42,173 bases of DNA from a virus: positions 1 through 42,173 of IMG/VR virus record IMGVR_UViG_3300034198_007508; one strand, given 5' to 3'. The position numbers and the translations under genes are program-made. Below, in pieces: positions 2,297 through 18,242 of this stretch. The notes beneath the pieces were generated by a model. It worked only from the letters and a program-made list of their open reading frames with translations. It did no database searches and had not been told where the DNA came from. Position 1 is the first letter of the stretch. Each line of letters starts with the position of its first letter.

Positions 2297-2324
2297 GGTC
2301 GGTGGTGTGGTGGCTGCGGGAATC

Positions 2325-2359: not shown

Positions 2360-2463
2360 TCATAATGTGCAGCACAGGCACCCAGGTCGGCGATGCAGTT
2401 TCTGCATAGTCAGCGCAGGGGAGCATGCCTGTACTACAACATCACAACAGCCGCTGCCGAGCT

Positions 2464-3352: not shown

Positions 3353-3728
3353 TGCTACAGCGTACCGATAGTATTTCTGTAGCGCTTGTAGCGCCGAGGA
3401 TCCGCTGCGCTTCCTCCACGGACCGGGCGATGCCGGCCAGGCCACCAGCAGCGGTGACGTGATCGAGCCAAGCGGTCTGCTCGGGGCGGACCCGGCCGGT
3501 GGGTGTCTTTACCTCAACAGCAGCAAACACCGCAACGGCCTGGCCCACCATCTCGGGCGTGATGGTGACGGTGCTGTAGCCGATCAGGTCGGCACTGCCG
3601 GGGCACAGGCCGAAAGTGACCATTCTGCCCTGCTGATCCAGCAGCCGGCCGACATTGTTACGCCAGAGCCGCACTGGCCCACGACTGCAGGCCAGGCGGA
3701 TCTCCTGCTGGATGCGCTGCTCACTCAT
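3246..3728 (-). CDS. VRR-NUC family nuclease
   Basis: A 160-residue protein starting MSEQRIQQEIRLACS. It has the compact PD-(D/E)XK arrangement of VRR-NUC proteins: SADLIG (Asp47), VEVKTPTGR (Glu72 and Lys74), then RPEQTAWLDHVTAAGG with Gln84. Family members are structure-specific nucleases or resolvase-like enzymes; in phages they sit with helicases and recombinases as here. The domain ends near residue 111; the remaining 49 residues are Ala/Pro-rich and may be a poorly conserved tail. The gene overlaps the XRE gene at its 3' end. A dyad (3742-3759) precedes the ATG. Confidence 0.85.
   Translation of the reverse strand: MSEQRIQQEIRLACSRGPVRLWRNNVGRLLDQQGRMVTFGLCPGSADLIGYSTVTITPEMVGQAVAVFAAVEVKTPTGRVRPEQTAWLDHVTAAGGLAGIARSVEEAQRILGATSATEILSVRCSNGENAATTENTAAGAGPPDFRCADQLLARPQPPER
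3354..3394 (-). promoter_or_regulatory. Candidate operator of the XRE gene
   Basis: On the minus strand there are two tandem GCGCTACA-type units (3377-3394) and, 16 bp on, the inverted CTGTAGC (3354-3360). Spaced direct and inverted copies just before the ATG of an XRE gene are what autoregulation usually looks like. The site lies within the 3' coding part of the nuclease gene. Confidence 0.4.
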
Positions 3729-3741
3729 TGCAGATGTGGAA

Positions 3742-3759
3742 CCACAGCGTCTACTGTGG
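3742..3759. promoter_or_regulatory. Perfect dyad CCACAG-N6-CTGTGG before the nuclease gene
   Basis: CCACAG, six bases, CTGTGG lies 14 bp upstream of the nuclease ATG. The half site agrees with the CACAGC-type elements found before other leftward genes, so it may be an operator for one of the small regulators rather than a terminator. It has no T-run. Confidence 0.45.
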
Positions 3760-3804
3760 CGGAGTTCTCCGGCGGGAAACCGGGAACGAATGGCACACCG
3801 AGCC

Positions 3805-4020
3805 TCACGCGGACGGCGTGGGGCTTTTCTGTTGCAATGCTTCCCGGCACTCCAGCTCTGCAATCCGTCGGGTTGCCCCACGGATTACCAAGTCCTGATG
3901 GAGCATCAGCTGGGCCATGGTCCGCAGCATGGCTTTCGCTTGCTGCAGGTCATAGCCCTCGATCGCACGGCGCTCACGCTCCAGGATCAACTGATGCTCT
4001 GGGCCGATCGTGGGGCACAT
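3805..4020 (-). CDS. Short coiled-coil hypothetical protein
   Basis: A 71-residue protein, MCPTIGPEHQLILERERR.... It is almost entirely helical, with heptad spacing of Leu and Met, and basic. The ATG at 4020 follows GGGGAGAGTGG, a good ribosome site; an ATG six codons earlier lacks one. It may be a small DNA- or partner-binding protein. The family is not recognised. Confidence 0.6.
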   Translation of the reverse strand: MCPTIGPEHQLILERERRAIEGYDLQQAKAMLRTMAQLMLHQDLVIRGATRRIAELECREALQQKSPTPSA

Positions 4021-4056
4021 CCACTCTCCCCAGGCCATGAGCGTTAGGCGTTGTGG

Positions 4057-4248
4057 TCAGGTTGCCGTCACACCACGCTCCAACAGGTGCGCGGCCAGGT
4101 TGCTGAGTGATCGGCCTTCGTAGTCGCTGCGGTTTGCCAGCAGCTGGTGGGTCTGCCAAGTGACCGTGATCGTGATCCGCTGCGGATTCCGCCGGCATGG
4201 CGGCAACAGGGTTGCAACGGTCTCGGTGGGGCGATTGAATGAATGCAT
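4057..4248 (-). CDS. Ribbon-helix-helix (CopG-like) small regulator
   Basis: About 63 residues. After a 24-residue Arg/Pro-rich lead it contains RITITVTWQTHQLL followed by GRSLSNLAAHLLERG, the RHH layout: one beta strand for DNA contact, then two helices. RHH dimers bind short repeated operators, consistent with the many dyads in this genome. AGGA close to the ATG at 4248 is a weak ribosome site, and a TTG start at 4260 is possible. An overlapping frame beginning MTTLL reads as low-complexity shadow. Confidence 0.6.
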   Translation of the reverse strand: MHSFNRPTETVATLLPPCRRNPQRITITVTWQTHQLLANRSDYEGRSLSNLAAHLLERGVTAT

Positions 4249-4298
4249 CGTCCTGTGCAAGCAGGGTGGTCATGGGCCGGGGGTTGCAGCCCGTCGGC

Positions 4299-4325
4299 TC
4301 ACAACACTGTTTTAGCGCTGTGGTT
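4299..4325 (-). promoter_or_regulatory. Upstream region of the RHH gene with CACAGCGCT element
   Basis: On the minus strand: GGAACCACAGCGCTA, an A-run, CAGTGTTGTGAG. This is an imperfect dyad whose left half matches the GGAACCACAGCG at 3740-3749 on the other strand. It lies in the gap between the HTH gene (ending 4347) and the RHH gene, so it may be the RHH operator. Confidence 0.4.
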
Positions 4326-4346
4326 CCTAAAGCGAAGCACTAGCGG

Positions 4347-4973
4347 CTAATAAGCGGCACTCCGCAGCGCCTCGAACGTCAGGCCCAGCGCTGGCACCGC
4401 ACGACGACGACGCACCGCCTCGCTGATGCAGGCCTGCGTCACGTGGTACCGCTTCGCCACTGCTCCGCAACTGCGGAACACCTCACCGGTTTCGACGCAG
4501 CGCACCCGCCAGTCACCCATCGGCCTGGGGTATCGAGCCGCGATGCTCTCCGCTAGCTCGCGGTCCTCCAGCAGCGCGAACAGCTGATCCACCGAAAACC
4601 CACCCAGCACCCTGGGCATCTCCACCGCAAGCCGTTTCCAGGAACGGCGCTCGATGTAGCGGATAGTGCCGATCATCCTCGGCTGCAGGATCTCCCGCAC
4701 ACGAGGCCTCCGCAGCCATGCCTCCACCCTGGTGCGTGGGCACCCCAGCAGGTCGGCCGAGCCGCCAGTCGTCAGCCACAGGCCATGCCTGACGCGGCCG
4801 TGCTGGCCGGTGCGGTGCAGGCGCAACAGGATCGCCTTCTCTGACCGATGCGGCCAGCCGTGCTGCGTCGCACGCCTCCGCATCTGCCACACCAGCACCG
4901 GGAACGGCACATCACCGGCCAAGCGGTCCAGGTACTCGGCTTCTTCAGGCAGCCATGACGGGTATTGGCTCAT
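4347..4973 (-). CDS. DNA-binding protein with SANT-like N-terminus and NUMOD1-like C-terminus
   Basis: A 208-residue protein. The N-terminus (WLPEEAEYLDRLAGDVP and following, about residues 8-50) looks like the SANT/Myb-type helical module of many phage regulators: acidic start, Trp anchors, then a basic helix with HRSEKAILLRL. The C-terminus (about 155-205) reads RCVETGEVFRSCGAVA, YHVTQACISEAVRR, then LTFEAL. This resembles NUMOD1/IENR1, the DNA-contact module of homing endonucleases, but no HNH or GIY-YIG catalytic motif is present. It is coupled to the helicase gene by an ATGA overlap. The role is probably site-specific DNA binding; the target is unknown. Confidence 0.7.
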   Translation of the reverse strand: MSQYPSWLPEEAEYLDRLAGDVPFPVLVWQMRRRATQHGWPHRSEKAILLRLHRTGQHGRVRHGLWLTTGGSADLLGCPRTRVEAWLRRPRVREILQPRMIGTIRYIERRSWKRLAVEMPRVLGGFSVDQLFALLEDRELAESIAARYPRPMGDWRVRCVETGEVFRSCGAVAKRYHVTQACISEAVRRRRAVPALGLTFEALRSAAY

Positions 4974-6352
4974 GCCACCACCCGCGCACGCTTCGCTTCC
5001 CTAGCGGCCAACACGTGCCGGGCCCAGGCTTGAGGCTTGGCCATGCCACGGCGGTGACCGATGCGCACCAGGTCGTCAAAGCTCTGGGCGCTGGACTGCT
5101 CAGCGCGGCGGGCCTGGCGGGCCACCACCTCCTGCAGCTCACCCTCAACGTGCTGCAGCTCCCGCCGCTCGGGCACGAACTGGTGGCCGCATTCGGGGCA
5201 CTCGGGGGTGCCGCTGGCCATGGCCGCGAAGCAGGCCGGGCACACCCGCACGCTCGGGGCAGCCTCGCGCTGGCGCTTGCTGACGCCCTCCAGCGACCAC
5301 TCCCGCTCATCGGTCGGCAGGCCGTGGCGCAGGGTGTTGCCGACGTGATCGAGCACCACGGCGTGGGTCTTGCCCGGGGCCGGCCGCAGGCACCGGCCGA
5401 TCATCTGCAGGTGCAGGCTCAGGCTCTGCGTCGGCCGCAGCAGGATGCAGCCGGCAACGCTCGGCACGTCCACGCCTTCGCCGATCAGGCTGCAGCTGGT
5501 GAGCACCTTCAGCTCACCCGTGCCCAGCTCCTCCAGCAGGCGGCGCCGAGACGCAGCGTCCATGCTGCCGTCAATGCTGGCCGCCGAGATGCCGTGCTCA
5601 TTGAACAGGGCCGCCACGGCCTCGGCATGGGCCACGCTGCAGCAGAACGCGATCGCCGTCTGGCCCTCCAGATGCTGCCGGTAGTGGCTGAGCGGTGACC
5701 CCATCGCCTGGCCGCTGCTCAGCATCTCGGCCGCCTGCCGCATGTCGTAGTCACCCATGCGCCGGCGCAGGCCCTGCAGGGTGATGCCTGGCGGGGCAAG
5801 GATGCGGGCGGGGGCGAGGTGGCCGCCATCGGTCAGATCCTGAGCGCTGGGGCCTAGCACCATCTCGCCATACCACTCATTAAGGCCGCGGCCATCGCAA
5901 CGGATCGGCGTTGCGGTAACGCCCAGCACCCGAGCGCGGTGGAAGTGACCCAGCACCTTGCCCCACGTGCCGGCGTTGCTGTGGTGGGCTTCGTCGACCA
6001 CCAGCAGCTGGAACAGATCAGCCGGCAGGCGATGCAACCGCCGCGCCAACGTGGCGACGCTGGCCACCTGCACCGGTGCCGACAGGTCCATTGAGCGGTT
6101 GGCGGCGATCAGCCCATGGCGCACGCCAAGGCCCTGGAGGGAGCGGCTGGTCTGCTCCAGCAGCTCGACCCGATGCACAAGGATGCAGATGCGGTTCCCA
6201 CGGGCTGCGGCACGCTCGGCGATGTGGGAGAACACCACCGTCTTGCCGCCGCCGGTAGGCAGGACGAACAGTACGGAGCGGTGGCCGGCGGCGAGGGCGG
6301 CGCGGATCTGGGCGACGGCGGCCTGCTGGTAAGGGCGGAGCTGCAGGCTCAT
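4970..6352 (-). CDS. DEAH-box superfamily 2 helicase with C-terminal zinc finger
   Basis: A 460-residue protein. RecA-like domain 1: Q-region RPYQQAAV (6-13), Walker A PTGGGKT (32-38), DEAH (120-123), TATP (146-149). Domain 2: SCSLIGEGVDVP (about 286-297) and motif VI QMIGRCLRP (316-324). After the helicase core a CxxC-x10-CxxC zinc ribbon lies at Cys371, 374, 385 and 388, followed by a basic helical tail. This layout is common in phage replication/repair helicases of the SSL2/RadD-like type. It is coupled by ATGA overlaps to both neighbours, the RecD-like helicase upstream and the DNA-binding protein downstream, so the three are made together. Confidence 0.93.
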   Translation of the reverse strand: MSLQLRPYQQAAVAQIRAALAAGHRSVLFVLPTGGGKTVVFSHIAERAAARGNRICILVHRVELLEQTSRSLQGLGVRHGLIAANRSMDLSAPVQVASVATLARRLHRLPADLFQLLVVDEAHHSNAGTWGKVLGHFHRARVLGVTATPIRCDGRGLNEWYGEMVLGPSAQDLTDGGHLAPARILAPPGITLQGLRRRMGDYDMRQAAEMLSSGQAMGSPLSHYRQHLEGQTAIAFCCSVAHAEAVAALFNEHGISAASIDGSMDAASRRRLLEELGTGELKVLTSCSLIGEGVDVPSVAGCILLRPTQSLSLHLQMIGRCLRPAPGKTHAVVLDHVGNTLRHGLPTDEREWSLEGVSKRQREAAPSVRVCPACFAAMASGTPECPECGHQFVPERRELQHVEGELQEVVARQARRAEQSSAQSFDDLVRIGHRRGMAKPQAWARHVLAAREAKRARVVA

Positions 6353-7983
6353 CGATCCCCCACCACATGCAAGCTCTCGGCGGCCCTGGTGATGCCGACG
6401 TAGGCCAGCTGGTTCTGCTGGGCAGTTGGTGCTGACCCCCAGCCGTCGATGCTCCAGTGCAGGAACACATGCCGGAACGTGCTGCCCTGTGACTTGTGAA
6501 TTGTCAGGGCGCTAGCTGGCTGCAGCTTGCCGACGCAATCCTTGCGGCTGAAATACAGGCCCCACAGCTCAGAGCGCTCTTTGCCGCTGGCGGCCTTTGC
6601 TTGGTCGGCAATGTCTTTCAGTGATTCATTCCAGCGTTGTTCATGCTCCTTGGCAATGACGCGAAACGTCCTGGACCCGTAGAAGTCGCCGGTAACCGTC
6701 AGCTCCCATGTGTCCCATGGCTCGTCAGTCAGCAGATCGCCGTAATCGGTGAAGCGGTGCGGGCCGCGCACGGCCTCCTCAATCAGCACATCCATCGTGC
6801 TGTTGAGCAGCAAGCCGGTCCCGATCGGGTCGGGAATGGCATCCACCGTCACGCAGGTCATGCCTTCTACGAACTGCGGTGCGTTCACGCCGTAGCGGCG
6901 CTGGTGGATGCGCAGGTTCATCTCGTCCACTGCCTTATTGGTGTGAGCCAGCGCCCTGCAGAAGTCGGGATCGCTCATCGCCTCATTCGATGCCGCCATG
7001 TCCAGCAGGGAGGCGCCCCACTGCTCACGGCTGCGATAGGTCACCACCCGCGAGCCGCCACCTTCGGCAGCGGCGAACCGAGCCCGACCGACCGGCATCT
7101 GCCTGGTGGCGGTGGCCAGGTTGAGGATTGCGCCATCGTGCCGCAGCACCTCGGTCAGCCGGTAGAGCGATCTGCCCTCGGTGAACGCCCGGCAGACCTG
7201 ATCTTCGCCAACAGGCAGCAGCTGGCGATCGTCGCCAACGAACACCACGGGCCGGCTCTGAAGCTCGCGCAGCAGTAGGTCGTAAAGCTCGCTGTTGAGC
7301 ATTGATGTCTCATCAACGATGACAACATCAATGCTTTTTTCGGGACGTCTAACCCATCTCTCCCGACACTTTTCCTCGTCCCACACTTCAACCCACTTAT
7401 TGATTTGAATAAGCATATTCTTCCCGCCCGGCTCCGGCTTGAATGTCTCCTTGCCGGTGTCGCGATCGCGGACCTGCTTTAGTCCCAACAAGCGAGCCAC
7501 CGTGACGGCCTCAAATCCCTGGGCGCCGCAGTTGTCCAACGCGCGTTCAACCTGCGACCGGGCCTTGTGCGTTGGCGTGGCCACCACGACCCGTTTACCG
7601 AGATCAGCCAGCCGCGAAACCAACGCTGCTGTGGTGACCGTCTTACCGGTGCCGGCGTAGCCGCAGAGCACGGGAGTGGCGCCGGGCTTCCTGATGTCTT
7701 CGAGAATCCCCTCAATCGCAGCCTGCTGGTCGGCGGTGAGCTGCAGGGTCGCCGGCTTGGCGGCTGCCGCAGGTGGCTCGGCCTGCTCGGCCTCCAGCGA
7801 TTGTGCCGTCAGCAGGTTGTAGAGCTGCGGCGGGATCTCATCGGCGAACACCTCATCCAGCCAGTCCCTGAGCGCCAGGATCTCGGCCGCGATGGCGTCG
7901 CGGGGCGTGCCGGGTGCGTTCATGCCGGCCTGTTCCATCGCCAGCCAGAGCGGCCGGCGATCGGTTGCTGCTGGTGCGGTCAT
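6349..7983 (-). CDS. RecD/Dda-like superfamily 1 DNA helicase
   Basis: A 544-residue protein. Walker A GYAGTGKT (108-115), THKAR (motif Ia, about 138-142), Walker B VIVDETSM (221-228), motif III GDDRQLLPVG (250-259), motif V/UvrD_C TIHKSQGST (494-502) and YVGITRA (528-534). This set is diagnostic of the RecD/Dda 5'-3' helicases used in phage replication. The first 80 residues are a helical extension with an acidic Pro/Ala linker. The ATG at 7983 starts the PAATDRRPLW segment; the open frame upstream is low-complexity. It is the first gene of the leftward block, with the control region immediately upstream. Confidence 0.93.
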   Translation of the reverse strand: MTAPAATDRRPLWLAMEQAGMNAPGTPRDAIAAEILALRDWLDEVFADEIPPQLYNLLTAQSLEAEQAEPPAAAAKPATLQLTADQQAAIEGILEDIRKPGATPVLCGYAGTGKTVTTAALVSRLADLGKRVVVATPTHKARSQVERALDNCGAQGFEAVTVARLLGLKQVRDRDTGKETFKPEPGGKNMLIQINKWVEVWDEEKCRERWVRRPEKSIDVVIVDETSMLNSELYDLLLRELQSRPVVFVGDDRQLLPVGEDQVCRAFTEGRSLYRLTEVLRHDGAILNLATATRQMPVGRARFAAAEGGGSRVVTYRSREQWGASLLDMAASNEAMSDPDFCRALAHTNKAVDEMNLRIHQRRYGVNAPQFVEGMTCVTVDAIPDPIGTGLLLNSTMDVLIEEAVRGPHRFTDYGDLLTDEPWDTWELTVTGDFYGSRTFRVIAKEHEQRWNESLKDIADQAKAASGKERSELWGLYFSRKDCVGKLQPASALTIHKSQGSTFRHVFLHWSIDGWGSAPTAQQNQLAYVGITRAAESLHVVGDR

Positions 7984-8264
7984 CGCTGCGGTGGTGGCGT
8001 CGTGGTGTGTGGAGCCTTCCCGCTTGCACGCGCCCAATGCGGGGCGACCCCCTGGAGCCAGCGCGTGTCCTCGACGGGACCCATACGGCTGTTGCCTGAC
8101 CGTGCGGTTACTACTCCGCACGGCATCCACCGCTTGGTCCGGGCAGTGGCAGGCATCAGCAGGGAGCGGGTGGGGGCTCCGCTGCGAATCGTAGCGCTGT
8201 GGATGCACAACCGCAGCATCAGGGGCATTAAGGTTTCACAGCACTCCCGCGCTATCGCCGCTCC
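7984..8264. promoter_or_regulatory. Divergent control region between the leftward and rightward blocks
   Basis: A stretch of 281 bp without a convincing gene separates the two transcription units. It holds the perfect dyad at 8100-8123 and, towards the rightward gene, TTTCACAGCAC then GCGCTATCG (8234-8257), the same kinds of element found before the leftward genes at 2325-2359 and 38913-38947. On the leftward side a CCACC-rich leader precedes the helicase ATG. It is probably the main early promoter/operator region. Confidence 0.6.
8100..8123. promoter_or_regulatory. Perfect 8-bp dyad CCGTGCGG-N8-CCGCACGG
   Basis: Eight-base arms separated by TTACTACT, in the middle of the divergent region. 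No T-run follows on either strand, so an operator, or part of an origin, fits better than an intrinsic terminator. The arm shares CCGTGC with the repeated AACCGTGCA units inside the primase gene (9271-9330). Confidence 0.55.
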
Positions 8265-8432
8265 ATGCCGCAGCATCGCCGCCCGCCCGAAGGGGCACGC
8301 ATCGTCACCATCCAGCTCCCCGACGAGCTGCTCCACCACCTCGATCAGCGTGCCGCCGAACGGACCATCTCCAGAGCCGCCATGATCCGGCAGCTCATCC
8401 TCGACGACCGCGAGGCCAAAGCAGCGGCCTGA
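8265..8432 (+). CDS. Ribbon-helix-helix (CopG-like) protein before the primase
   Basis: A 55-residue protein. RIVTIQLPDELLHHL is the RHH beta strand plus first helix, and AERTISRAAMIRQLI the second helix with the conserved Ser-Arg-Ala start, followed by an acidic/Ala tail. The stop at 8430-8432 lies two bases before the primase ATG, so the two are co-translated. RHH proteins bind DNA as dimers and often repress their own operon; the dyads just upstream are natural targets. A role as replication or early-gene regulator is inferred. Confidence 0.75.
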   Translation: MPQHRRPPEGARIVTIQLPDELLHHLDQRAAERTISRAAMIRQLILDDREAKAAA

Positions 8433-8434
8433 GC

Positions 8435-10954
8435 ATGGCCAGCATCCTTGACGCAGCGGCCGGCCAATGGCCCCGGCTACTGGTGGACCTTGGCGGCCTG
8501 ACAGCTGAGCAGCTCACCGACAAGCACCAGCCTTGCCCGGCCTGCGGCGGGACCGATCGCTACCGCTGGGACAACGACGACGGCCCCGGCGGCGCCTACT
8601 GCAACCAGTGCGGGGGCAAGGACCAGCGCGGCGGTGGCATGTCGGGCGTGGACCTGCTGATGCGGGTCAAGGGCTGGGATCTGAAGCAGGCCTGCGCTTC
8701 TGTCGAGCGGCACCTAGGCCTGGCGGTGGAGCGGCCCGCACCGCCGACAGCAGGAGCTGAGAGCTTCTGGCAGTACAACGCCGACTTCATTGTCTGCCGG
8801 TTCCCGGATCCGGTCAAAGGCAAGAAGGTCCGACCCCTCTGGTGGGACGGCAGCAAGTGGGCATGGAAGTCACCACCGAAGCCACGGCCGCTGTACTGGG
8901 CCAGGCGTGAGGCCGGCGCCCCGGTGCTGATCGCCGAGGGCGAACCCAGCATCGATGCCGGCGCCAAGCTGTTCCCCGCCCACGCCTGCGTCACCTGGCC
9001 CGGCGGCACCCCCAGCGTCGACAAGGCCGACTGGAGCGCCCTGCGCAGCCGTGACGTGGTGCTCTGGCCTGATGCCGATGACGTGGGTCGCAAGGCGATG
9101 GCGCAGCTGGCCCAGATCCTGCTGCAGCTCGGCTGCACCGTGCTGGTGATCAACGTCCCCAGCGGCGCACCGCAGGGCTGGGACCTGGCCGATGCCCTGA
9201 AGGAAGGCTGGACGCCAGCCCAGGCCACGAAGCTCGTCGAGCGGTTTGGCAAGGCGGTGGAGCCGCCGGCAACCGTGCAAACCGTGCAGGCCGAGCCCGC
9301 AACCGTGCAGGGAACCGTGCAAACCGTGCAGGCAGGCGCGGAGCCGCTGCCCGGGGCGCCGTTCACCTGCCTGGGGTTTGATGACGGCGGTTACTTCTAC
9401 CAGCCGAACAACACCGGCCAAGTCGTCAGACTCAGCCGTGCATCCCATACCGCCACCAACCTGCTGCAGCTCGCAGGCCTGGCGTACTGGGAGACGCTCC
9501 ATCCCGCACGGTCCGGCGCCAACTGGCAATCAGCCGCCTCCGCACTCTTCGAGCAGCAGGCCCACGTCGGTATCTACAGCCCCGATCGGATCCGTGGTCG
9601 CGGCGCCTGGTGGGATGACAGCCGACCCGTCCTGCACCTCGGTGATCGGCTCCTCGTAGACGGCACCCTGCACCCCATCACCAAGCAGCCGCCTTCACGC
9701 TTCAACTACCAACGCCTCGCCGCGATCGATCTCCCAACGGACCTGGCGCCGCTCACCGATCAGCAAGGCGCCGAAGTCCTTGACATCGCCTCACGCTTCC
9801 TCTGGGAAGTCCCAGCATCCGGCCTGCTACTCGCCGGCTGGGCGGCCCTGGCACCCATCTGCGGCAGCCTTACCTGGCGGCCACACGTCTGGCTCACCGC
9901 AAGCGCCGGCAGCGGCAAGAGCGCCATCCTCGAACGCTTCCTTGGCACCCTGCTCCAGGACGTTGCCCTATGGCCCGAAGGCAGCACCAGCGAAGCATCC
10001 ATCCGTCAGGAACTTCGCGCTGATGCACTGCCCGTGATCATGGACGAAGCCGAGAGCAACGAGCAGGCCGATCAGAAGCGCATCCAGTCGATCCTCGCGC
10101 TCGCTCGTGTCGCCTCCAGCTCCGGCCGTGGCTTCGTCGGTCGTGGTGGCGCTGATGGCGCTGCACAACGCTTCACGGTGCGGAGCATGTTCCTGCTGTG
10201 CTCCATCTCCACCGCCCTCAAGCAAGGCGCCGACGCATCCCGCTTCGCGCAGCTCACACTCCGCAATCCGAAATTCCTGCCCCAACCCGAACGCGCCGAG
10301 CACTGGGCATCCCTTGACAGGGACATGACCGCCCTGATCACCCCACAGCTCGGCCATCGCCTGCTGCTGCGCTCCGTACGGCTCATCCCGATCATCCGCG
10401 ACAGCGTGGCTGTCTTCCGCCGTGCTGCCGCTGTTCGCTTTGATAGCCAGCGCCAAGGCGATCAGTACGGCACCCTTCTCGCCGGCGCCTGGTCACTCAT
10501 GAACAGCTGTCCGGCCACCGAAGCTGATGCCCTGGCATTGATCGATGCCAACGATTGGGATGCGTACCGCGATGCTGCCGAGCAGCCCGATGAGGAGCGC
10601 TGCCTGCAGCACATCCTTCAGCACCAGCTGCGGGTTGAAGGTGACCGCAACAGCTACACCCGCACCGTCTGGGAGCTGATCGAGCTGGTGCGCACCACCA
10701 CCACCAGCATGGAGATCGGCATCGGCGCCGCTGAAGCCCACCTAGGCCGCCTGGGCCTGCGCGTCATGGATGGCCGCCTGGTCATCGCCAACACGTCCCT
10801 AGGCCTTCAGCGCATCCTTGCCGCCACTGCATGGGCCCACAGCTGGCCCACAGTCCTGTCCCGCCTGCCTGGTGCTGAGAAGCCAGGCAAGGTGCGCTTC
10901 AAGGGAATGGCACACAACAGCCGCGCCGTCGCGGTACCGCTCGACGAAGACTGA
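8435..10954 (+). CDS. Primase-helicase fusion protein
   Basis: An 839-residue protein. Zinc-binding domain: Cys34, 37, 56 and 59 (CPACGGTDRYRW ... CNQCGG), as in P4-type and TOPRIM primases. TOPRIM-like domain: LIAEGEPSIDA with EGEPS at 168-172, then WPDADDVGR with DADD at 213-216. A linker with repeated TVQ follows (about 279-300). The C-terminal half is a DUF927-like ATPase: Walker A ASAGSGKS (489-496) and MDEAE (536-540) for Mg/ATP chemistry. It should synthesise primers and unwind or load at the phage origin. It is the second gene of the rightward block, preceded by an RHH gene and followed by a repeat cluster that may be the origin. Confidence 0.92.
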   Translation: MASILDAAAGQWPRLLVDLGGLTAEQLTDKHQPCPACGGTDRYRWDNDDGPGGAYCNQCGGKDQRGGGMSGVDLLMRVKGWDLKQACASVERHLGLAVERPAPPTAGAESFWQYNADFIVCRFPDPVKGKKVRPLWWDGSKWAWKSPPKPRPLYWARREAGAPVLIAEGEPSIDAGAKLFPAHACVTWPGGTPSVDKADWSALRSRDVVLWPDADDVGRKAMAQLAQILLQLGCTVLVINVPSGAPQGWDLADALKEGWTPAQATKLVERFGKAVEPPATVQTVQAEPATVQGTVQTVQAGAEPLPGAPFTCLGFDDGGYFYQPNNTGQVVRLSRASHTATNLLQLAGLAYWETLHPARSGANWQSAASALFEQQAHVGIYSPDRIRGRGAWWDDSRPVLHLGDRLLVDGTLHPITKQPPSRFNYQRLAAIDLPTDLAPLTDQQGAEVLDIASRFLWEVPASGLLLAGWAALAPICGSLTWRPHVWLTASAGSGKSAILERFLGTLLQDVALWPEGSTSEASIRQELRADALPVIMDEAESNEQADQKRIQSILALARVASSSGRGFVGRGGADGAAQRFTVRSMFLLCSISTALKQGADASRFAQLTLRNPKFLPQPERAEHWASLDRDMTALITPQLGHRLLLRSVRLIPIIRDSVAVFRRAAAVRFDSQRQGDQYGTLLAGAWSLMNSCPATEADALALIDANDWDAYRDAAEQPDEERCLQHILQHQLRVEGDRNSYTRTVWELIELVRTTTTSMEIGIGAAEAHLGRLGLRVMDGRLVIANTSLGLQRILAATAWAHSWPTVLSRLPGAEKPGKVRFKGMAHNSRAVAVPLDED
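9271..9330 (+). repeat. Five AACCGTGCA direct repeats inside the primase gene
   Basis: Nonamers start at 9271, 9280, 9301, 9313 and 9322. They encode the TVQ-rich linker between the TOPRIM-like and ATPase parts. Lambda-type phages keep iterons inside the initiator gene in the same way, so this may be a protein-binding site as well as a linker. It could equally be plain codon-level duplication. Confidence 0.85.
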
Positions 10955-11245
10955 TCCTGTCCCGCCCCGGCAACAGCGGGACAGAAAGCGGGACGGTCAG
11001 AACCCCTGTAAACACTAGGTTTGTCCCGCCGGTCCCGCCTGTCCCGCTTTTTGAAAGGAGACAGGCTTTCACGCGCATGCGCGCCTGCGCGCGTACACGC
11101 GTGCGCGCACGCCTGTGTGAGTGTTCATTTCTCTAGAGAGGGACAAACGGGACAGACACCACCAAACACCAATGGTGGCAAAGGGTTTCGGCTGTCCCGC
11201 CCCCCGGGACAGAGCGGGACGCGGCGGGACGGCAGCGGGACGGGC
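10955..11245. other. Candidate replication origin: cluster of GCGGGAC repeats
   Basis: A non-coding stretch after the primase gene has ten exact copies of GCGGGAC or its complement. In direct orientation they start at 10976, 10988, 11214, 11224 and 11235; inverted at 10959, 11023, 11032, 11041 and 11194. Near copies lie at about 11139, 11147 and 11204. The wider unit is GCGGGACRG. Between the two half-clusters lie a long alternating GC tract, TCTCTAGAGA (11130-11139) and CACCAATGGTG (11167-11177). Dense iterons next to a primase are typical of an origin; a terminase-binding or late control site is the alternative. Confidence 0.65.
11070..11117. other. Alternating purine-pyrimidine tract
   Basis: About 48 bp of nearly unbroken CG/CA/TG alternation with only two phase breaks, between the two halves of the GCGGGAC cluster. 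Such tracts can adopt Z-DNA under negative supercoiling. Nothing in it is coding. Confidence 0.75.
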
Positions 11246-11260
11246 CTGAAAAGCCGCTCC

Positions 11261-11268
11261 TAGCCTGA
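11261..11268 (+). promoter_or_regulatory. TAGCCTGA motif, copy 1
   Basis: CTCCTAGCCTGA ends 4 nt before the ATG at 11273. TAGCCT fits the TANNNT form of a -10 box; with normal spacing transcription would start at or next to the ATG. See copies at 12284, 14666, 16324, 22664, 30656 and 31477. Confidence 0.5.
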
Positions 11269-11272
11269 CTTC

Positions 11273-11482
11273 ATGAAGCGCAGCGCATCCCCCAGCTGGC
11301 TCTTAGACCGCTCCACACCATGGCTCGCCTGGTGGCAGGAGCTGATCCTCAACTGGATCGCCTCATGGCATGCCGTCGGGGCCATCACCGTCGTCTCCGC
11401 CGATGGTGAGGAGTTCTGCGAATGGGAGCTCCCGTCAGACATTGAGCTCGCACGCGCTGAACTGGAGGAGCTGATCCGATGA
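11273..11482 (+). CDS. 69-residue hypothetical protein, first gene after the origin-like cluster
   Basis: MKRSASPSWLLDRSTPWLAWW... It is Trp-rich in the first half (PWLAWWQELILNWIASW), then acidic with DGEEFCEWELPSDIEL. It could be a small tail or packaging accessory, but the family is not recognised. There is no Shine-Dalgarno sequence; a TAGCCTGA motif sits 4 nt before the ATG. Its stop overlaps the ATG of the 11-codon frame at 11479. Confidence 0.6.
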   Translation: MKRSASPSWLLDRSTPWLAWWQELILNWIASWHAVGAITVVSADGEEFCEWELPSDIELARAELEELIR

Positions 11483-11514
11483 ATCACTCCACACCCGCAT
11501 TGGAAGACTGGTAA
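11479..11514 (+). CDS. Possible 11-residue coupled peptide
   Basis: MNHSTPALEDW. Its ATG overlaps the previous stop (ATGA) and its stop overlaps the next ATG (TAATG), so it bridges two genes exactly. It may be a real peptide, or simply a device to carry ribosomes to the next gene. Confidence 0.3.
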   Translation: MNHSTPALEDW

Positions 11515-12134
11515 TGGCTTCCGTCACGATCTCACTCACAGGGCTCGACGGGCTGCAGAGGATGCAGCAGTTCGTCAATCCAGCCCTTTTCAGCAAGGCC
11601 CAGCAAGGCGGCGTCTCCTACGCCTCAAAGGCTGTCCCGCCTGCAGTAGCCAAAGGCATCGCCGCTGGCTACAACATCGCCTCGGCCAGGATCAAGAAGG
11701 ACATCTCTGGGATCCGCTTTGCCTCCGATCGCCAAAGCGCCACCATCGGATTCAGTAAGCGGTCGCCAACCCTGGTCCAGTTCAAGCCAACCCTTGGCAC
11801 CCGTGGCCATCAACCTGGCCTAGGCCGTGGCCTCGGCTGGGGGCCACCAAGCCCACCAGGTAAGCCCGTCATGGCCACCATCCTGCGAGGCAAACGCCAA
11901 TCCTTCCCCGGTGTCTTCATCACCACCGGCAACAGCGGCAACCAGATCGCACTGAGGCGCACCAGCAACGGTGGCCTGCAGTCCGTCTACGGCCCATCCA
12001 TCGGCTCGATCTTCGCTGGTCAATCAGCGATCGGACCGCAGCTTCGCTCGTCAGTCGAGGCACGCATCAACGAGCAGTTCATCAAAGGCTTTCAGCGCGT
12101 CATCGACTCGGCGATGCGTGGCTACGGCCGCTAA
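11514..12134 (+). CDS. Minor tail protein Z-like
   Basis: A 206-residue protein. The middle (SARIKKDISGIRFASDRQSATIGFSKRSPTLVQFK) has the pattern of prophage minor tail protein Z / gp10-like head-tail proteins: a basic helix with paired Lys, then beta strands. A Gly/Pro-rich stretch (GRGLGWGPPSPPG) follows, and the C-terminal helix (INEQFIKGFQRVIDSAMRG) is typical of that family. Its place before the terminase is unusual for a tail gene. Assignment is by character, not by a diagnostic motif. Confidence 0.55.
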   Translation: MASVTISLTGLDGLQRMQQFVNPALFSKAQQGGVSYASKAVPPAVAKGIAAGYNIASARIKKDISGIRFASDRQSATIGFSKRSPTLVQFKPTLGTRGHQPGLGRGLGWGPPSPPGKPVMATILRGKRQSFPGVFITTGNSGNQIALRRTSNGGLQSVYGPSIGSIFAGQSAIGPQLRSSVEARINEQFIKGFQRVIDSAMRGYGR

Positions 12135-12196
12135 AAAAATCGCGGGTCCTCCGGCGGCAAACTGTTAGTGCCGGTCCCTGCGCCTCCCAAAACCTG

Positions 12197-12213
12197 TTGA
12201 GATCACTTCTCAA
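12197..12213. terminator. Weak hairpin TTGAGA-N5-TCTCAA after the tail-Z-like gene
   Basis: A 6-bp perfect stem in the gap before the small terminase gene, followed by TAAAGC, not a T-run. It could be a weak terminator or a structural element of a packaging site. The rest of 12135-12255 shows no gene. Confidence 0.3.
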
Positions 12214-12255
12214 TAAAGCGACGGCCACGGTCGTGCAGGCGCACGATCTCCCTCG

Positions 12256-12304
12256 TTGTCACAGCAGCGTGTCACAACCTTTCTAGCCTGTGACACGGTG
12301 ACAA
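12256..12304. promoter_or_regulatory. Nested inverted repeat upstream of the small terminase
   Basis: Outer arms TTGTCAC (12256-12262) and GTGACAA (12298-12304) enclose inner arms GTGTCACA (12269-12276) and TGTGACAC (12289-12296). TAGCCT (12284-12289) sits at the centre. This looks like an operator built around the late motif. A terminase-binding cos subsite is the alternative, since the small terminase gene follows directly. Confidence 0.55.
12284..12291 (+). promoter_or_regulatory. TAGCCTGT motif, copy 2
   Basis: TTTCTAGCCTGT, one base off the consensus, with 25 nt from TAGCCT to the GTG start of the small terminase. It is enclosed by the inverted repeat at 12256-12304. Confidence 0.45.
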
Positions 12305-12314
12305 GCCATCGACG

Positions 12315-12833
12315 GTGCTCATCACAATCAGCGAAGCCGCTGAGATCCTTGGTCTCAAGAGTCGAGGCAGTATCTACCGGAAGATCAACAACGGCGAGCT
12401 GCAAACGACAGCCGGCGCCGATGGGCCAATGTTGGAGCGCGACGGATTGGAGCAGCGCTGGGCCAACATCACCCGCAAGCGATCCGACTCTCCAAGGCCG
12501 AAGACTGCGGCCGCGCCTCAGCCATCACCGCATAGGCCAGCCGAACGCAGTGATGAACCGCCGGACTACAGCGAGAGCCGCGCCCGCTCCGAATACGAGA
12601 AGGCCAACCTGCTGGAGCTGGAGCGCAAGCAGAAGGAAGGCCTGTTGCTGCCACGTGAGGAAGTGGAGCGTGCGCAGGCTGCTGCGGTGGCGATTAGCAA
12701 GACGCGCCTTCTGGGGGTGCCCAGCACCGCAAAGCAGCGCATCCCGCACCTGAGCCTGGATGAGGTTGAGATCTTGACGACGCTGATCCGTGAGGCCCTT
12801 GATGAGCTGGCCGGCTGGGAGGTGGCGGCATGA
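12315..12833 (+). CDS. Terminase small subunit, Nu1-like
   Basis: 172 residues from a GTG start. An N-terminal winged-helix/MerR-like DNA-binding module (ISEAAEILGLKSRGSIYRKINNGEL, about residues 4-28) is followed by a Pro-rich linker and a helical second half with a charged coiled coil (SRARSEYEKANLLELERKQKEGLLL). This is the layout of lambda Nu1, which recognises the packaging site and hands DNA to the large subunit. The 3' end overlaps the large-subunit gene by 4 nt. Confidence 0.88.
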   Translation: MLITISEAAEILGLKSRGSIYRKINNGELQTTAGADGPMLERDGLEQRWANITRKRSDSPRPKTAAAPQPSPHRPAERSDEPPDYSESRARSEYEKANLLELERKQKEGLLLPREEVERAQAAAVAISKTRLLGVPSTAKQRIPHLSLDEVEILTTLIREALDELAGWEVAA

Positions 12834-14668
12834 GCGCCGACGTGCTGACCGCGCAGATCCTGGGCCGCTGGCGCCCGCCGCCGCGGCTAAGCCTGACGGA
12901 ATGGGCCGATACCTATGGCGTGCTCACCGGTGATGCTGCCGAGAAGGGGAAATGGCAGACGCTGCCCTATCAACGCGGAATCATGGATGCCTTCACCGAT
13001 CCGACGGTGGAGACGGTCGTGTGCCTGAAGTCCGCTCGGGTGGGGTGGACGATGATCCTCGGGCATGTGATCGGCTACTACAGCCACCAGGACCCGTGTC
13101 CGGTGATGGTGGTGCAGCCGGTGGTTGAAGACGCGGAGGGCTACAGCAAGGAGCAGATCGCGCCGATGTTTCAGGACACGCCGGTCCTGCGTGGTCTTGT
13201 ATCAGAGGCGAAGGCAAGGAACACCAGCACGAACACGATCCTGCTGAAGCAGCTGGTGAATGGCGGTGTGATCGACATTGTGGGTGCCAATAGCGGCCGG
13301 GCGTTCCGTCGGAAGTCGCGCAGGGTCGTCCTGTTTGATGAGGCCAGCGCCTACCGCGCCATTCCCGAGGGTGACCCGATCAAGCTGGGCCGGAACCGCT
13401 CGGACTACTTCTGGAACCGGAAGATCGGAATCGGATCAACTCCGATCACGAAGGGCTTCGATCGAACCGAGGCGTGGTTCCTGAAGTCCGATCAGCGACG
13501 GTTCTTCGTGCCGTGTCCGTTCTGCCAGCACAGGCAGGTGCTGCGTTGGCCGCAGATGAAATGGCCGCAGGGCAAGCCTGATGAGGCGGCCTATGAGTGC
13601 GAGAACTGCGGGGAGCTGATCCCGCATAGCAAGAAGCGAGCGATGGTCGAGGCCGGCGAGTGGAGGCCAACAGCCACCAGTTCAGAGCCTGGCCTGGTGG
13701 GCTTCCACATCTGGGCGGCTTACAGCTTCAGCCCGAACGCCGAATGGGGAAAGCTGGCCCGCGAGTTCCTTGAGGTGAAGGGCGACCCGGAGCAGCTGCA
13801 AACGTTCGTGAACACGATCCTGGGGGAGACGTGGGAGGACGAGTACACCAACACGATCAGCGCTGAGGGCCTGTCTACCAGGCGCGAGGAGTACCCAGTG
13901 GGCGAGGTGCCGGCCGGCGGATTGGTGCTCACCGGTGGCGTTGACGTTCAGGATGACCGAATCGCGGTTGCGATCTGGGCTTGGGGTCGTGGCGAGGAAG
14001 CGTGGCATGTGTGGGCGCAGGAGATCTGGGGCGACCCATCGCAGCCGGAGCTATGGGAGCAGCTGGATGCTGTGTTGGAGACGCGCTGGCCGCGAGAAGA
14101 TGGCGGTGAAATGCAGGTCTCCCAGCTGGCGGTTGACTCCGGCCACATGACGCATGAGGTCTACGCCTACTGCCGAGCGAGGAAGGCGCAAGGTGTGGTG
14201 CCGATCAAAGGCGCCAGCGTGCGAGGCAAGCCGCCGATCGGGAAGGGCACACCGCAGGACATCAACCGAAAGAACCAGCCAAGGGTGAAGTCGGGCGTGA
14301 TGCTTTACACGGTGGGTCACGACACGATCAAGGCCACGCTGTACGCCAGGCTGCGCCATACCCACCCCGGCCCTGGCTACATCCACCTAGGCCAGGCTGC
14401 GACCGATCAGTTCTTGGAGCAGCTGACGCCATGGAAGATCCAGACCCAGTACATCAAGGGCCAACCAGTGCGTGACTGGGTGAAGGCCAGCAAGGACCGG
14501 GACGAGTTCGGGGATTGCACGGTCTACAGCTATGCAGCGCTGCAGCTGCTGAGCAGGCGCTACAACAAGGCCACCATGTGGGATCAGCTTGAGGCGCAGG
14601 TATCGGCCGGCCCTGGACCGCAGGCGCCGACTATGCAGCGGCGGAAGTCAAGCTGGCTCAATTCCTAG
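12830..14668 (+). CDS. Terminase large subunit, gpA family
   Basis: A 612-residue protein. Walker A-like KSARVGWT (67-74), Walker B VVLFDEA (166-172), the GSTPITKGF coupling motif (202-210), and a zinc-type set Cys229, 232, 257 and 260, characteristic of lambda gpA-type enzymes. The nuclease half has GGVDVQDDRIAV and LAVDSGHMT, supplying the metal-binding Asp residues. It cuts and drives concatemeric DNA into the prohead. This family usually works on cos ends, which fits a genome that closes into a circle. It ends in TCC TAG, the TAG being the first bases of late-motif copy 3. Confidence 0.96.
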   Translation: MSADVLTAQILGRWRPPPRLSLTEWADTYGVLTGDAAEKGKWQTLPYQRGIMDAFTDPTVETVVCLKSARVGWTMILGHVIGYYSHQDPCPVMVVQPVVEDAEGYSKEQIAPMFQDTPVLRGLVSEAKARNTSTNTILLKQLVNGGVIDIVGANSGRAFRRKSRRVVLFDEASAYRAIPEGDPIKLGRNRSDYFWNRKIGIGSTPITKGFDRTEAWFLKSDQRRFFVPCPFCQHRQVLRWPQMKWPQGKPDEAAYECENCGELIPHSKKRAMVEAGEWRPTATSSEPGLVGFHIWAAYSFSPNAEWGKLAREFLEVKGDPEQLQTFVNTILGETWEDEYTNTISAEGLSTRREEYPVGEVPAGGLVLTGGVDVQDDRIAVAIWAWGRGEEAWHVWAQEIWGDPSQPELWEQLDAVLETRWPREDGGEMQVSQLAVDSGHMTHEVYAYCRARKAQGVVPIKGASVRGKPPIGKGTPQDINRKNQPRVKSGVMLYTVGHDTIKATLYARLRHTHPGPGYIHLGQAATDQFLEQLTPWKIQTQYIKGQPVRDWVKASKDRDEFGDCTVYSYAALQLLSRRYNKATMWDQLEAQVSAGPGPQAPTMQRRKSSWLNS

Positions 14669-14673
14669 CCTGA
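14666..14673 (+). promoter_or_regulatory. TAGCCTGA motif, copy 3
   Basis: TTCCTAGCCTGA, 3 nt before the ATG at 14677. The TAG also serves as the stop codon of the large terminase. TAGCCT to ATG spacing is 5 nt. Confidence 0.5.
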
Positions 14674-14676
14674 GCC

Positions 14677-14874
14677 ATGGCCTATACCCAGACTCAGCTC
14701 GACGACCTGCGCGGCGCGATTGCCGAGGGCGTGCTGAAGGTGTCCGCCAATGGCCGCACGGTCGAGTACCGCAGCCTCGCGGACATGCGTCAGCTGGAGC
14801 GGATCATGGCCGATGAACTGGAGAGCAGCACCCGCCGTCCGGAGCGGATTTACTGCAGCTTTCGGAGGGCCTGA
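14677..14874 (+). CDS. Head-tail joining protein, gpW-like
   Basis: 65 residues: MAYTQTQLDDLRGAIAEG, a short basic turn (SANGRTVEYRS), then LADMRQLERIMADEL. This helix-hairpin-helix plan and the length match lambda gpW, which sits between the terminase and portal genes in the same way. It stabilises packaged DNA and forms the tail attachment surface. The last base overlaps the portal start. Confidence 0.88.
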   Translation: MAYTQTQLDDLRGAIAEGVLKVSANGRTVEYRSLADMRQLERIMADELESSTRRPERIYCSFRRA

Positions 14875-16319
14875 TGGGCAAGCGTACGGAGCAGCTGGAG
14901 CTGGCGTTGAAGGCCACGAAACTGGAACTGGCGAAGACCCACCTGCGGGCGTTTGAAGCGGCGAAGCTCAGCCGGCGAACTGACAACTGGCTGGCCGATA
15001 GCAAGGGTCCGAATGCAGACATCCGGCTGAGCCTGCAGCGGATGGTGGCCAGGCATCAGGACCTGGTGGACTCTGACCCATGGGCCAGCAAGGCCGTCAG
15101 CGTGGTGGTCAGCAACTGGGTCGGTGATGGCATCATCGGCCGGCCGGTCGGCCCTGGCGCTACCAGCAAGTACGTCAACGCCTGGCGGGACTGGAGTGAA
15201 TCGCTGGACTGCGACTGGGACAGCCAGGGCAACATCTACGCGAAGCAGGCGTTGATTGCTCGCACGGTGGCGGTGCGTGGCAGCTGCCTGGTACGCCGGC
15301 GGATCAATGAAGAGCTGCTGGCGCGTGGCTTGCCGCCGCTGCAGATCCAGGTGCTAGAGCCGGACTGGCTGGACATCAGCAAGGATGATGGCGCACGGAT
15401 CCGGTTCGGCAAGCAGTACCGAGAGGATGGCCGACTGGAGGGCTACTGGATCAGGAAGAACCACCCCGGTGAAAGTGATTGGACCGCCAGCCGGCTCGGC
15501 TCAGACTTTGTGCCGGCCAATGAGATCTGCCACATCTACGATCTGCGCCGTCCTGGCCAGGCGACGGGCGTGCCGTTCGGCGTGGCGGCGCTGTTGAAGC
15601 TGCGGGACATCAGCGATCGTGACGCGGCGCAGTTGTTGAAAGACAAGCTGTCGGCCTGCTTCATGGCCTTCCTGGAGGACAGCGAGGGCGACCCGACGCT
15701 CAAGCAGGAAGGCGCCGCCCTGCTGGATCAGCTGGAGCCCGGCGCGATCGAGATCCTGCCGCCCGGGAAGAACGTCCGATTCTCCGAGCCGCCCAGTTCC
15801 GGCGACTTCGTGTCGGTGCAGAAGTACCACCTCCTATCCGTGGCACAGGCCTACGAAATCACTTACGAAGCGCTGACCGGTGATCTGTCGCAGGTGAACT
15901 TCAGCAGCGGCCGGATGGGTTGGGTGGAGATGCGCCGCGCTGTGGCCCGCTGGCGGTGGAGCATCATCATCCCGCAATTCCTGCAGCCGCTGGCCGGCTG
16001 GTATCGCGACGCCGTGGCGATGGCGTCCATGGGTCGCGGCACCGCACGCTTCGAGTGGACCCCACCGGTGACCTGGCTGGTGGATCCAGCCCGCGAACTG
16101 CCGGCCTACATCGATGCCATCAAGGCCGGCGTGATGAGTCTGAGCGAGCTGCACCGGATGCTGGGCTATGTGCCGGAGCTGGTGATCCAGGAGCTGGGCG
16201 ACGACATGGCCAGGGCGCGTGCGGCTGGGTTGGCATTGTCCAGCGATGGCGCCACTGGTGGGATGACATCAGCCGCAGCGGCAATCAGCGCTGACCAGCA
16301 ACAAGCACCTCAGGCGTAA
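14874..16319 (+). CDS. Portal protein, lambda family
   Basis: A 481-residue protein. Conserved portal features include DLVDSDPWASKAVSVVVSNWVGDG near the N-terminus, VAVRGSCLVRRRINEE, QVLEPDWLD, the DLRRPGQATGVPFGVAALLKLRDI segment, and YEALTGDLSQVNFSSGRMGW. These match the lambda gpB type. Twelve copies form the ring through which DNA enters. The N-terminal 40 residues are a charged coiled coil. The C-terminal 20 residues are Ala/Gln-rich and disordered. Confidence 0.96.
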   Translation: MGKRTEQLELALKATKLELAKTHLRAFEAAKLSRRTDNWLADSKGPNADIRLSLQRMVARHQDLVDSDPWASKAVSVVVSNWVGDGIIGRPVGPGATSKYVNAWRDWSESLDCDWDSQGNIYAKQALIARTVAVRGSCLVRRRINEELLARGLPPLQIQVLEPDWLDISKDDGARIRFGKQYREDGRLEGYWIRKNHPGESDWTASRLGSDFVPANEICHIYDLRRPGQATGVPFGVAALLKLRDISDRDAAQLLKDKLSACFMAFLEDSEGDPTLKQEGAALLDQLEPGAIEILPPGKNVRFSEPPSSGDFVSVQKYHLLSVAQAYEITYEALTGDLSQVNFSSGRMGWVEMRRAVARWRWSIIIPQFLQPLAGWYRDAVAMASMGRGTARFEWTPPVTWLVDPARELPAYIDAIKAGVMSLSELHRMLGYVPELVIQELGDDMARARAAGLALSSDGATGGMTSAAAAISADQQQAPQA

Positions 16320-16323
16320 TCCG

Positions 16324-16331
16324 TAGCCTGA
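16324..16331 (+). promoter_or_regulatory. TAGCCTGA motif, copy 4
   Basis: TCCGTAGCCTGA, 3 nt before the ATG of the capsid fusion gene; TAGCCT to ATG spacing 5 nt. It lies in the 15-nt gap after the portal stop codon. Confidence 0.5.
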
Positions 16332-16334
16332 ACC

Positions 16335-18242
16335 ATGGAATCCAAACGCCTGCAAAGGATGGCGCTGCTGGCGCCAAATACGTGGGATGAAGAAACGCGC
16401 TCTGCGCAGATCGTCATTTCCACGGATGCCGATGTCGGCGATGGCTTCCAGCTGGTGCATTCGCCGGATGCCATCCGCTGGCCGGAGCGTCCGTTGCCGG
16501 CGGACTATGACCACCTGCGCACTTCAGAGAGTATCTGGGGAGCGGTGACCGATCTGAGCCTGGAGCGTGCCGCTGATGGCACGACACAACTCGTCGGACA
16601 GGTGGTCGTCGATGGCCCGCCGGCTGCGATGGATCTAGCCCTGCCTCGTCTGCGGACTGGTAGCGCAAGGTTCAGCGTGGATGCCCGGATCTACGGCTGG
16701 GCAGAAGCCCCCGGCAGCGTGCTGATGGCGACCGACTGGGAACCGCAGCTCGTGAGCTTGGTGGCCGCTGGCCAGGACACGCACGCCGTGATGCGCGGTG
16801 ATCAATCTCAGGGAGTCCCCCCGATGACCGATGAAACTCAGGCCGGGGGCGACCCGGTGATTGAAGACCAAGCCGACACCACTCCGGCAGCTGTTGAAGC
16901 TGCGCCGGTGGTTGCTGCCGAGCCTGCCGAGCAGGTGGAGCGCAGCGCCGCTGATGAGCGCCTTGAGCTGGCTGTGCGTCGTGCCGCCTCTGAGGCGAAG
17001 CTCGATGAGCCCACCATTCAGCGCATCCTGGCTGATCACCGCGGCCGGCCTCAGGTCGAAGCGGTGACCGCCGTCGTGCGCGAGTTCCGTACCCGTCTTG
17101 AGCGTGAGGCACCCGTGACCGCTGGCCATCCCGCCCGGATCGAAGTCACCCGCGACAGCGGTGAGTCGATCGTTCGCGCCTTCAACTCTGAGCTGGAGCG
17201 TCGCGCCGGTCTGATCAACGCACCCACCGACGAAGGCAAGGCCGCCTACGGGCTGACCTGCCTGGAGATGTGCCGCGGCTACCTGCAGTCCCGTGGGGTC
17301 AACACCCTGGGGATGAGCAAGAACGAGGTTGTCCAGCGGGCGTTCCACAGCACCTCGGACTTCCCGAACCTGTTCGCCAACGTCGCCAACAAGACTCTCC
17401 TGGCTGCCTATGCCGAGGAGCCGCAGACCTGGGGACCGCTGGCCCGTCAGCGCAACCTGCCTGACTTCAAGTCGGTCACTGATCTGCAGGTCGCCGGTCA
17501 GATCGTCCCCGAGAAGATCCTTGAAGGCGGTGAGTACAAGTCCGGCACGCTGACCGAAGGGAAAGCGACCTGGAACCTTGCCACTTACGGCAAGCGGATT
17601 GCGGTAACCAGGCAGGCCATCATCAACGATGACCTGGACAGCCTGTCCCGCGTGCCCGAGATGCTTGGCCGTGGCTGCCGGCTGCTCGAGTCGAACATGG
17701 TGTGGGAGCTGCTGACCACCGGCGCATCTGGTGCCACTGTCAGCCTGGATGGCCAGGCCCTGTTCCATTCGAGCCACAGCAACACCAGCACCGGCGCTGA
17801 TTCGGTGATCGGCATCAAGGGCATGGATGCCGCAAAGCTCAAGCTCCGCAAGCAGACCGACCTGGCCGGCAACCGTCTCAACTTGGCGCCTGCCTACATG
17901 GTGGTGCCGCCTGAGCTGGAGACGACTGCGCTGCAGTTCCTGTATCCGACCGGCTACGCCCCGACCAGCCTGACCGGCAGCAGCGGCCCTAACCCGTTTG
18001 CGGGTGGCGTGCAGCTGATCGTTGAGCCCCGCCTGTCTGATGACAGCTCGGCTTATTGGTATCTGACCAGCTCGCCCAACCGGGTTGAGATGATCACCTA
18101 CGGCTATCTGGCTGGCGAGGCTGGGCCGACGATCACGACCACTGAGAACCGCAACCCTGACGGGGTTGAGCTTTTGGTCAGGATGGATTTCGGCTGCACC
18201 CTCAGCGACTTCCGGGGCTTCGTGCGCTCCGCTGGCTCCTGA
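16335..18242 (+). CDS. Prohead protease / scaffold / major capsid fusion protein
   Basis: A 635-residue protein. Residues 1-160 look like a HK97-type prohead protease: DYDHLRTSESIWGAV (His60) and LRTGSARFSVDARI (Ser110 or Ser114 as nucleophile). Residues 165-260 are acidic, Ala/Glu-rich and helical like a scaffold. From about 275 the sequence is of the Mu gpT-like capsid type: FANVANKTLLAAY, FKSVTDLQVAGQIVPEK, YGKRIAVTRQAIINDD and DGQALFHSSHSN. The fold would be HK97. Met164 (16824) has a good ribosome site, so scaffold plus capsid may also be made separately. The protease presumably cuts itself and the scaffold away during maturation. Confidence 0.9.
   Translation: MESKRLQRMALLAPNTWDEETRSAQIVISTDADVGDGFQLVHSPDAIRWPERPLPADYDHLRTSESIWGAVTDLSLERAADGTTQLVGQVVVDGPPAAMDLALPRLRTGSARFSVDARIYGWAEAPGSVLMATDWEPQLVSLVAAGQDTHAVMRGDQSQGVPPMTDETQAGGDPVIEDQADTTPAAVEAAPVVAAEPAEQVERSAADERLELAVRRAASEAKLDEPTIQRILADHRGRPQVEAVTAVVREFRTRLEREAPVTAGHPARIEVTRDSGESIVRAFNSELERRAGLINAPTDEGKAAYGLTCLEMCRGYLQSRGVNTLGMSKNEVVQRAFHSTSDFPNLFANVANKTLLAAYAEEPQTWGPLARQRNLPDFKSVTDLQVAGQIVPEKILEGGEYKSGTLTEGKATWNLATYGKRIAVTRQAIINDDLDSLSRVPEMLGRGCRLLESNMVWELLTTGASGATVSLDGQALFHSSHSNTSTGADSVIGIKGMDAAKLKLRKQTDLAGNRLNLAPAYMVVPPELETTALQFLYPTGYAPTSLTGSSGPNPFAGGVQLIVEPRLSDDSSAYWYLTSSPNRVEMITYGYLAGEAGPTITTTENRNPDGVELLVRMDFGCTLSDFRGFVRSAGS
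16811..16826 (+). promoter_or_regulatory. Internal ribosome site and ATG within the capsid fusion gene
   Basis: GGGAG lies 8 nt before the in-frame ATG at 16824, exactly at the junction between the protease-like domain and the acidic scaffold-like region. Starting here would give a 472-residue scaffold-capsid protein without the protease. Lambda C/Nu3 uses the same device. Confidence 0.55.

Follow-up and report, generated by a model that had tools for sequence, protein, structure and literature searches.

An iteron array following a phage primase-helicase gene as a probable replication origin with a recognition word that may be partly decodable

Among the genes of a cyanobacterial-type phage, a dense cluster of short GCGGGAC repeats directly follows the gene for a primase-helicase, and this placement raises the question of what the cluster does and which protein reads it. 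The window analysed here is the entire virus record (IMG/VR IMGVR_UViG_3300034198_007508; 42,173 nucleotides). Comparison of this sequence with those of its relatives indicates that the array is very probably the replication origin of the phage, and that the primase-helicase whose gene directly precedes it would bind the iterons through its C-terminal domain.

The window contains 19 copies of GCGGGAC, with ten exact copies at 10959-11241. Shuffling predicts 10.3 copies for the whole window and thus the motif is at background outside the array, with no similar density elsewhere. The ten copies within 290 bp compare with a mean maximum of 1.5 and a largest value of three in 200 Markov shuffles, which bears out the original count of ten exact and about three near copies. 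The near copies (AGGGACA at 11139, and CGGGACA at 11148 and 11205) complete an array of 13 iterons over 285 bp (10958-11242) with the core CGGGAC[A/G]. As originally described, the sites lie in both orientations and form two half-clusters around an alternating GC tract, with six sites on the left (10958-11046; - + + - - -) and seven on the right (11139-11242; + + - + + + +). The array begins 3 bp past the primase-helicase stop codon and ends before a small ORF at 11273 (Table 1). Two further copies were excluded, at 10858, inside the primase codons for a conserved VLSRLPG stretch, and at 11634, inside the next gene. The only denser repeats in the window are imperfect tandem GCCATA hexamers at its two ends (1-141 and 42086-42173), which share one orientation; the contig may come from a circular or permuted genome that was opened within this repeat. 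Searches of the window found no RNA families and no promoters, and terminator-like matches were weak.

Table 1. Positions of the proposed initiator gene and of the array elements in the window.
Feature	Position	Strand	Basis or remark
Primase-helicase gene (Zn-ribbon, TOPRIM-like, AAA+ helicase, C-terminal domain), proposed initiator	8435..10954	+	
C-terminal domain codons (residues 715-839), proposed iteron-reading domain	10577..10951	+	model pLDDT 87; covariation
P817-G818-K819-V820-R821 codons, proposed base-reading residues	10883..10897	+	821 with base 6, 819 with base 3
Iteron 1 (TGTCCCG on + strand)	10958..10964	-	repeat count
Iteron 2 (CGGGACA)	10977..10983	+	repeat count
Iteron 3 (CGGGACG)	10989..10995	+	repeat count
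Spacer E1, 26 bp	10996..11021	.	about 25-26 or 35-37 bp in many relatives
Iteron 4 (TGTCCCG on + strand)	11022..11028	-	repeat count
Iteron 5 (GGTCCCG on + strand)	11031..11037	-	repeat count
Iteron 6 (TGTCCCG on + strand)	11040..11046	-	repeat count
Alternating purine-pyrimidine GC tract, between half-arrays	11070..11119	.	variable or absent in relatives
T-rich stretch, proposed unwinding element	11115..11138	.	inferred from stability profile of 62 relatives
Iteron 7 (AGGGACA), first of tandem pair	11139..11145	+	near copy
Iteron 8 (CGGGACA), second of tandem pair	11148..11154	+	near copy
Spacer E2, 38 bp	11155..11192	.	36-38 or 25 bp in most relatives
Iteron 9 (TGTCCCG on + strand)	11193..11199	-	repeat count
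Iteron 10 (CGGGACA)	11205..11211	+	near copy
Iteron 11 (CGGGACG)	11215..11221	+	repeat count
Iteron 12 (CGGGACG)	11225..11231	+	repeat count
Iteron 13 (CGGGACG)	11236..11242	+	repeat count

Scans for relatives yielded 152 distinct regions downstream of primase genes, the window included, comprising 112 cyano-lineage and 40 distant loci; scanning with L141 as query yielded none. Of the named phages, only Synechococcus phage S-H1 (51%) matches over nearly the full length at more than 40% identity. With words picked by eye and orientation assigned from the layout, a word was identified behind the primase stop codon in 110 of the 112 cyano-lineage loci, where it forms an inverted, two-half iteron array, and 103 of these 110 individually exceed their shuffles at p<=0.01. 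An unbiased best-7-mer test is significant in 76 of the 112 and, free of curation, in at least 16 of the 40 distant relatives, including Bdellovibrio phage phi1422 and records labelled Elusimicrobia, Gammaproteobacteria and Rhizobium. The median array holds seven core copies, whereas shuffles predict 0.25 and the remaining sequence of the loci has 0.08 per 400 bp. Each lineage carries its own word, and 32 distinct seven- or eight-letter words were collected (CGGGACA, CGGAACA, CGTAACA and CGTTAGG among them). Eight-letter words, one base above the usual length, lie just after the primase stop in L016 (TGTAGACA), L173 (GGTTCACA) and L185 (CGTAGACA). About 22 of the 40 distant relatives (L154, L160, L162, L164, L170, L175 and others) have no array directly after the primase gene, and their origins may lie elsewhere. 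The S-H1 and phi1422 records carry no origin annotation at the place of the array.

The layout is kept among relatives as a half-array, a low-complexity tract, an easily melted T-rich stretch, a tandem pair, a spacer and the second half-array. The T-rich stretch often resembles TATCTATATCTCTTTTTAG, the members of the tandem pair are 8-9 bp apart, and mean duplex stability across 62 aligned loci reaches its minimum 11-30 bp before this pair. Convergent (+)(-) neighbours are mostly 31-32, 42-44, 50-56 or 60-62 bp apart, giving a period near 10.5 bp (R 0.56) whose p-value is merely indicative because the relatives are not independent. The lengths of spacers E1 and E2 also recur; as conserved hairpins these spacers were rejected, their single-sequence folds being inconsistent. 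The alternating tract is GC, AT or absent among relatives and is accordingly not regarded as essential; this part of the original description does not generalise.

The protein that reads the array is indicated by covariation between word positions, aligned in register with base 2 always G, and the columns of the protein alignment from residue 300 on, across 68 dereplicated loci. Of all columns, residue 821 accounts best for base 6 (AMI 0.688, z 12.7), compared with a mean of 0.032 (sd 0.052, maximum 0.186) for the 360 helicase-core columns; base 7 tracks residue 821 too. For base 3 the strongest column is residue 819 (AMI 0.296, z 6.2), with Lys819 accompanying G. Among the 122 loci with seven-letter words, C6 occurs with Arg in 84 and Lys in one, and G6 with Trp in 20, His in 11 and Tyr in four, so that the pairing of Arg or Lys with C (85) and of His, Trp or Tyr with G (35) is free of exceptions in 120 phages; the two remaining loci have T6, one with His and one with Ser. 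The orientation assigned to the words is not the source of this pairing, since a G..C word remains G..C when reversed and a G..G word becomes C..C. On a tree built from the helicase core only, base 6 changes 12 times, the class of residue 821 ten times and their joint label 12 times, the same as base 6 alone, which shows that the residue switches coincide with base switches, about ten times in all. The covariation of residues 821 and 819 with bases 6 and 3 points to the C-terminal domain as the part of the protein that would set iteron specificity.

Because these words had been curated by eye with the protein ends in view, new loci were called from DNA alone. All nine unambiguous seven-letter calls were correct, although L196 and L197 are near a known locus and L214-L223 form one related group: L196, L197, L200, L214, L217, L220, L221 and L223 were called G and have His or Tyr at 821, and L198 was called C and has Arg. 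The eight-letter case L219 has Lys at the 821 position, and the word of L199 could not be read. The exceptions are the distant L216 and L227, called C-type yet with Thr at the 821-equivalent, in which the word register is uncertain. Just after the primase stop, the words of L216 and L227 (GTTGCAA; GTAGCTA and CGGGAAC) depart from the code. The proposed residue-base code performs well inside the family; outside it, the code is unproven. The joint change of the word and of the amino acid that apparently reads it means that origin specificity may be partly decodable from sequence.

A structural model of residues 300-839 gives the SCCmec Cch structure 5dgk as its top Foldseek match (E 2.9e-9), along with 7ola (E 3.9e-6). 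VIA alignment places 5dgk_B at Z 15.4 over 421 residues, spanning the whole model, and SaPI Rep 7ola at Z 13.8 with a similar AAA+ fold; on the AAA+ part of the model, MCM helicases equal the Cch and SaPI scores. By fold, the helicase core is of the Cch/SaPI AAA+ type. The C-terminal domain alone gave no significant Foldseek match, and a PDB sequence search with its profile returned no relevant match. Its VIA match to residues 452-554 of SaPIBov1 Rep (8tch_A, Z 4.1) is tied with unrelated rows and is therefore just a hint. In the model, residue 821 comes right after the strand formed by 815-820, where the last hairpin begins, a position from which it may contact base 6. A tandem repeat of about 21 nt within the primase gene (9271-9333) codes for a TVQ-rich linker between the primase and helicase parts.

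The domain and the array also appear to move, change or be exchanged together. In pairs with helicase cores at least 85% identical, the C-terminal domains are on average 94% identical where both carry one word and 71% where their words differ. The cores of L063 and L070 are 97-98% identical to those of L044 and L045, and the domains 36-38% identical, with the words CGTAACA and CGCAACA, an apparent cassette swap.

Several known replicons share parts of this arrangement. The alpha protein of phage P4 likewise combines primase and helicase, has an origin-binding domain at its C-terminus and works with short iterons at ori. P4 uses in addition a second, distant iteron site (crr); no crr-like cluster was found in the window, a record of uncertain completeness. 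The P4 origin-binding domain gave no sequence match and is absent from the Foldseek and VIA rows, an absence that is uninformative. In the account given in PMC7581432, SaPI Rep recognises, through its C-terminal domain, iterons just downstream of its own gene (Ubeda et al. 2007) and is reported to bind as two hexamers. The likeness comprises an initiator helicase, iterons directly after its own gene, where the present array also lies, and a similar AAA+ fold. The present system, however, belongs to a phage rather than a satellite island, has a Zn-ribbon/TOPRIM-type primase fused in front, shows no sequence match to SaPI Rep, and has words that differ widely between close relatives. The isolated C-terminal domain of SCCmec Cch2 binds direct repeats right after its gene, at a putative ori with AAGTG iterons (PMC7581432), and both the position of the iterons and the alignment of the phage model to Cch over its whole length are shared. 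Unlike the three 5-nt iterons of the Cch2 site, 13 sites are arranged here in two inverted half-arrays, and the primase activity, which resides in separate SCCmec proteins, is fused. In the PLE of Vibrio cholerae, iteron variants escape Odn, an origin-directed nuclease of phage ICP1 (PMC7145576, PMC8263062), and origin and initiator binding domain are exchanged as a module, as appears to happen here, with such a nuclease as a plausible driver (PMC8263062). PLE RepA, in contrast, is a RepA_N initiator that lacks helicase and primase, and its iterons are long and semi-palindromic.

By analogy with Cch2 and SaPI Rep, each half-array, with its roughly six sites, would be occupied by the initiator, perhaps in the form of two hexamers that face each other; the T-rich stretch ahead of the tandem pair would melt, and the AAA+ helicase would load and unwind while the fused primase primes, in a direction that is likewise conjectural. 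Genes on the opposite strand nearby encode a Dda-like helicase, an SF2 helicase, an endonuclease and a RecT-like protein. Relatives of the PHROG 93 endonuclease and SF2 helicase genes (window 3246-6352) lie upstream of the primase in 45 and 63 of 78 loci, respectively, which suggests that endonuclease, SF2 helicase and primase form a conserved replication module. GC skew, proposed originally as a check, has its cumulative minimum at 12.6 kb in the window; among relatives, it is higher downstream than upstream in 24 of 48, with no consistent shift, and neither supports nor refutes an origin.

The original prediction had allowed that the cluster might instead be a packaging (cos/pac) or late-control site, bound by terminase or a regulator, and the terminase, portal and capsid genes do lie within 1-4 kb downstream of the array. 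Across relatives, however, the array stays with the primase and not with the terminase, a large terminase of the window type being present in just seven of the 78 loci with full flanks, and the word covaries with a primase residue; this alternative is weakened accordingly and is very unlikely. Only slightly less remote is the idea that the array serves as an origin whose words are recognised by some other protein of the phage or the host, such as an RHH protein: more than one protein can bind iterons, and genes for RHH proteins had been noted originally. Besides the primase, none of 16 tested window ORFs (211 to 18242) recurs in every relative that bears an array, the next commonest gene, that of the SF2 helicase, reaching the 63 loci noted above, and residue 821 surpasses every other primase column in explaining base 6. 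Both observations make another reader improbable, and binding is more likely to be the work of the C-terminal domain of the primase-helicase than of an RHH protein.

Least probable is that the primase-helicase binds the array to repress its own gene or to control copy number, as an operator or incompatibility site apart from the start of replication. Plasmid iteron arrays often serve control as well. The present array, however, comes after the gene, and its facing half-arrays enclose a conserved stretch that melts easily. The related SaPI and SCC systems, moreover, have their ori or putative ori at this place (PMC7581432). The reading of the array as an origin beside the primase-helicase, as first proposed, is thus supported, the array following the same gene in nearly all cyano-lineage relatives with a word that covaries with residue 821.

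Iteron origins after the gene of a self-loading helicase are already known, as is the exchange of origin and binding domain in PLE. As far as the literature searched shows, the phage family, the breadth of its word diversity and the partial residue-to-base code are new; searches aimed at this kind of origin returned no description, and one for S-H1 a passing mention only. The origins of uncultivated phages are rarely known, and here they can be placed by sequence in more than 100 phages and prophages, with a likely reader and likely base-contacting residues named for them. The outcome is a testable recognition code, together with a natural set of 32 origin words. It is a balanced question whether the primase-helicases of this large phage family possess an origin-reading domain that can be rapidly re-targeted and follows a simple, partial code (821, 819). 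Such a domain would change or be exchanged together with its array and give closely related phages many mutually incompatible types of origin, with origin-directed nucleases, satellites or co-infecting phages as possible drivers. These observations raise the further question of why the phages keep changing their word, whether to escape cross-replication, satellites or origin-cutting nucleases such as Odn.
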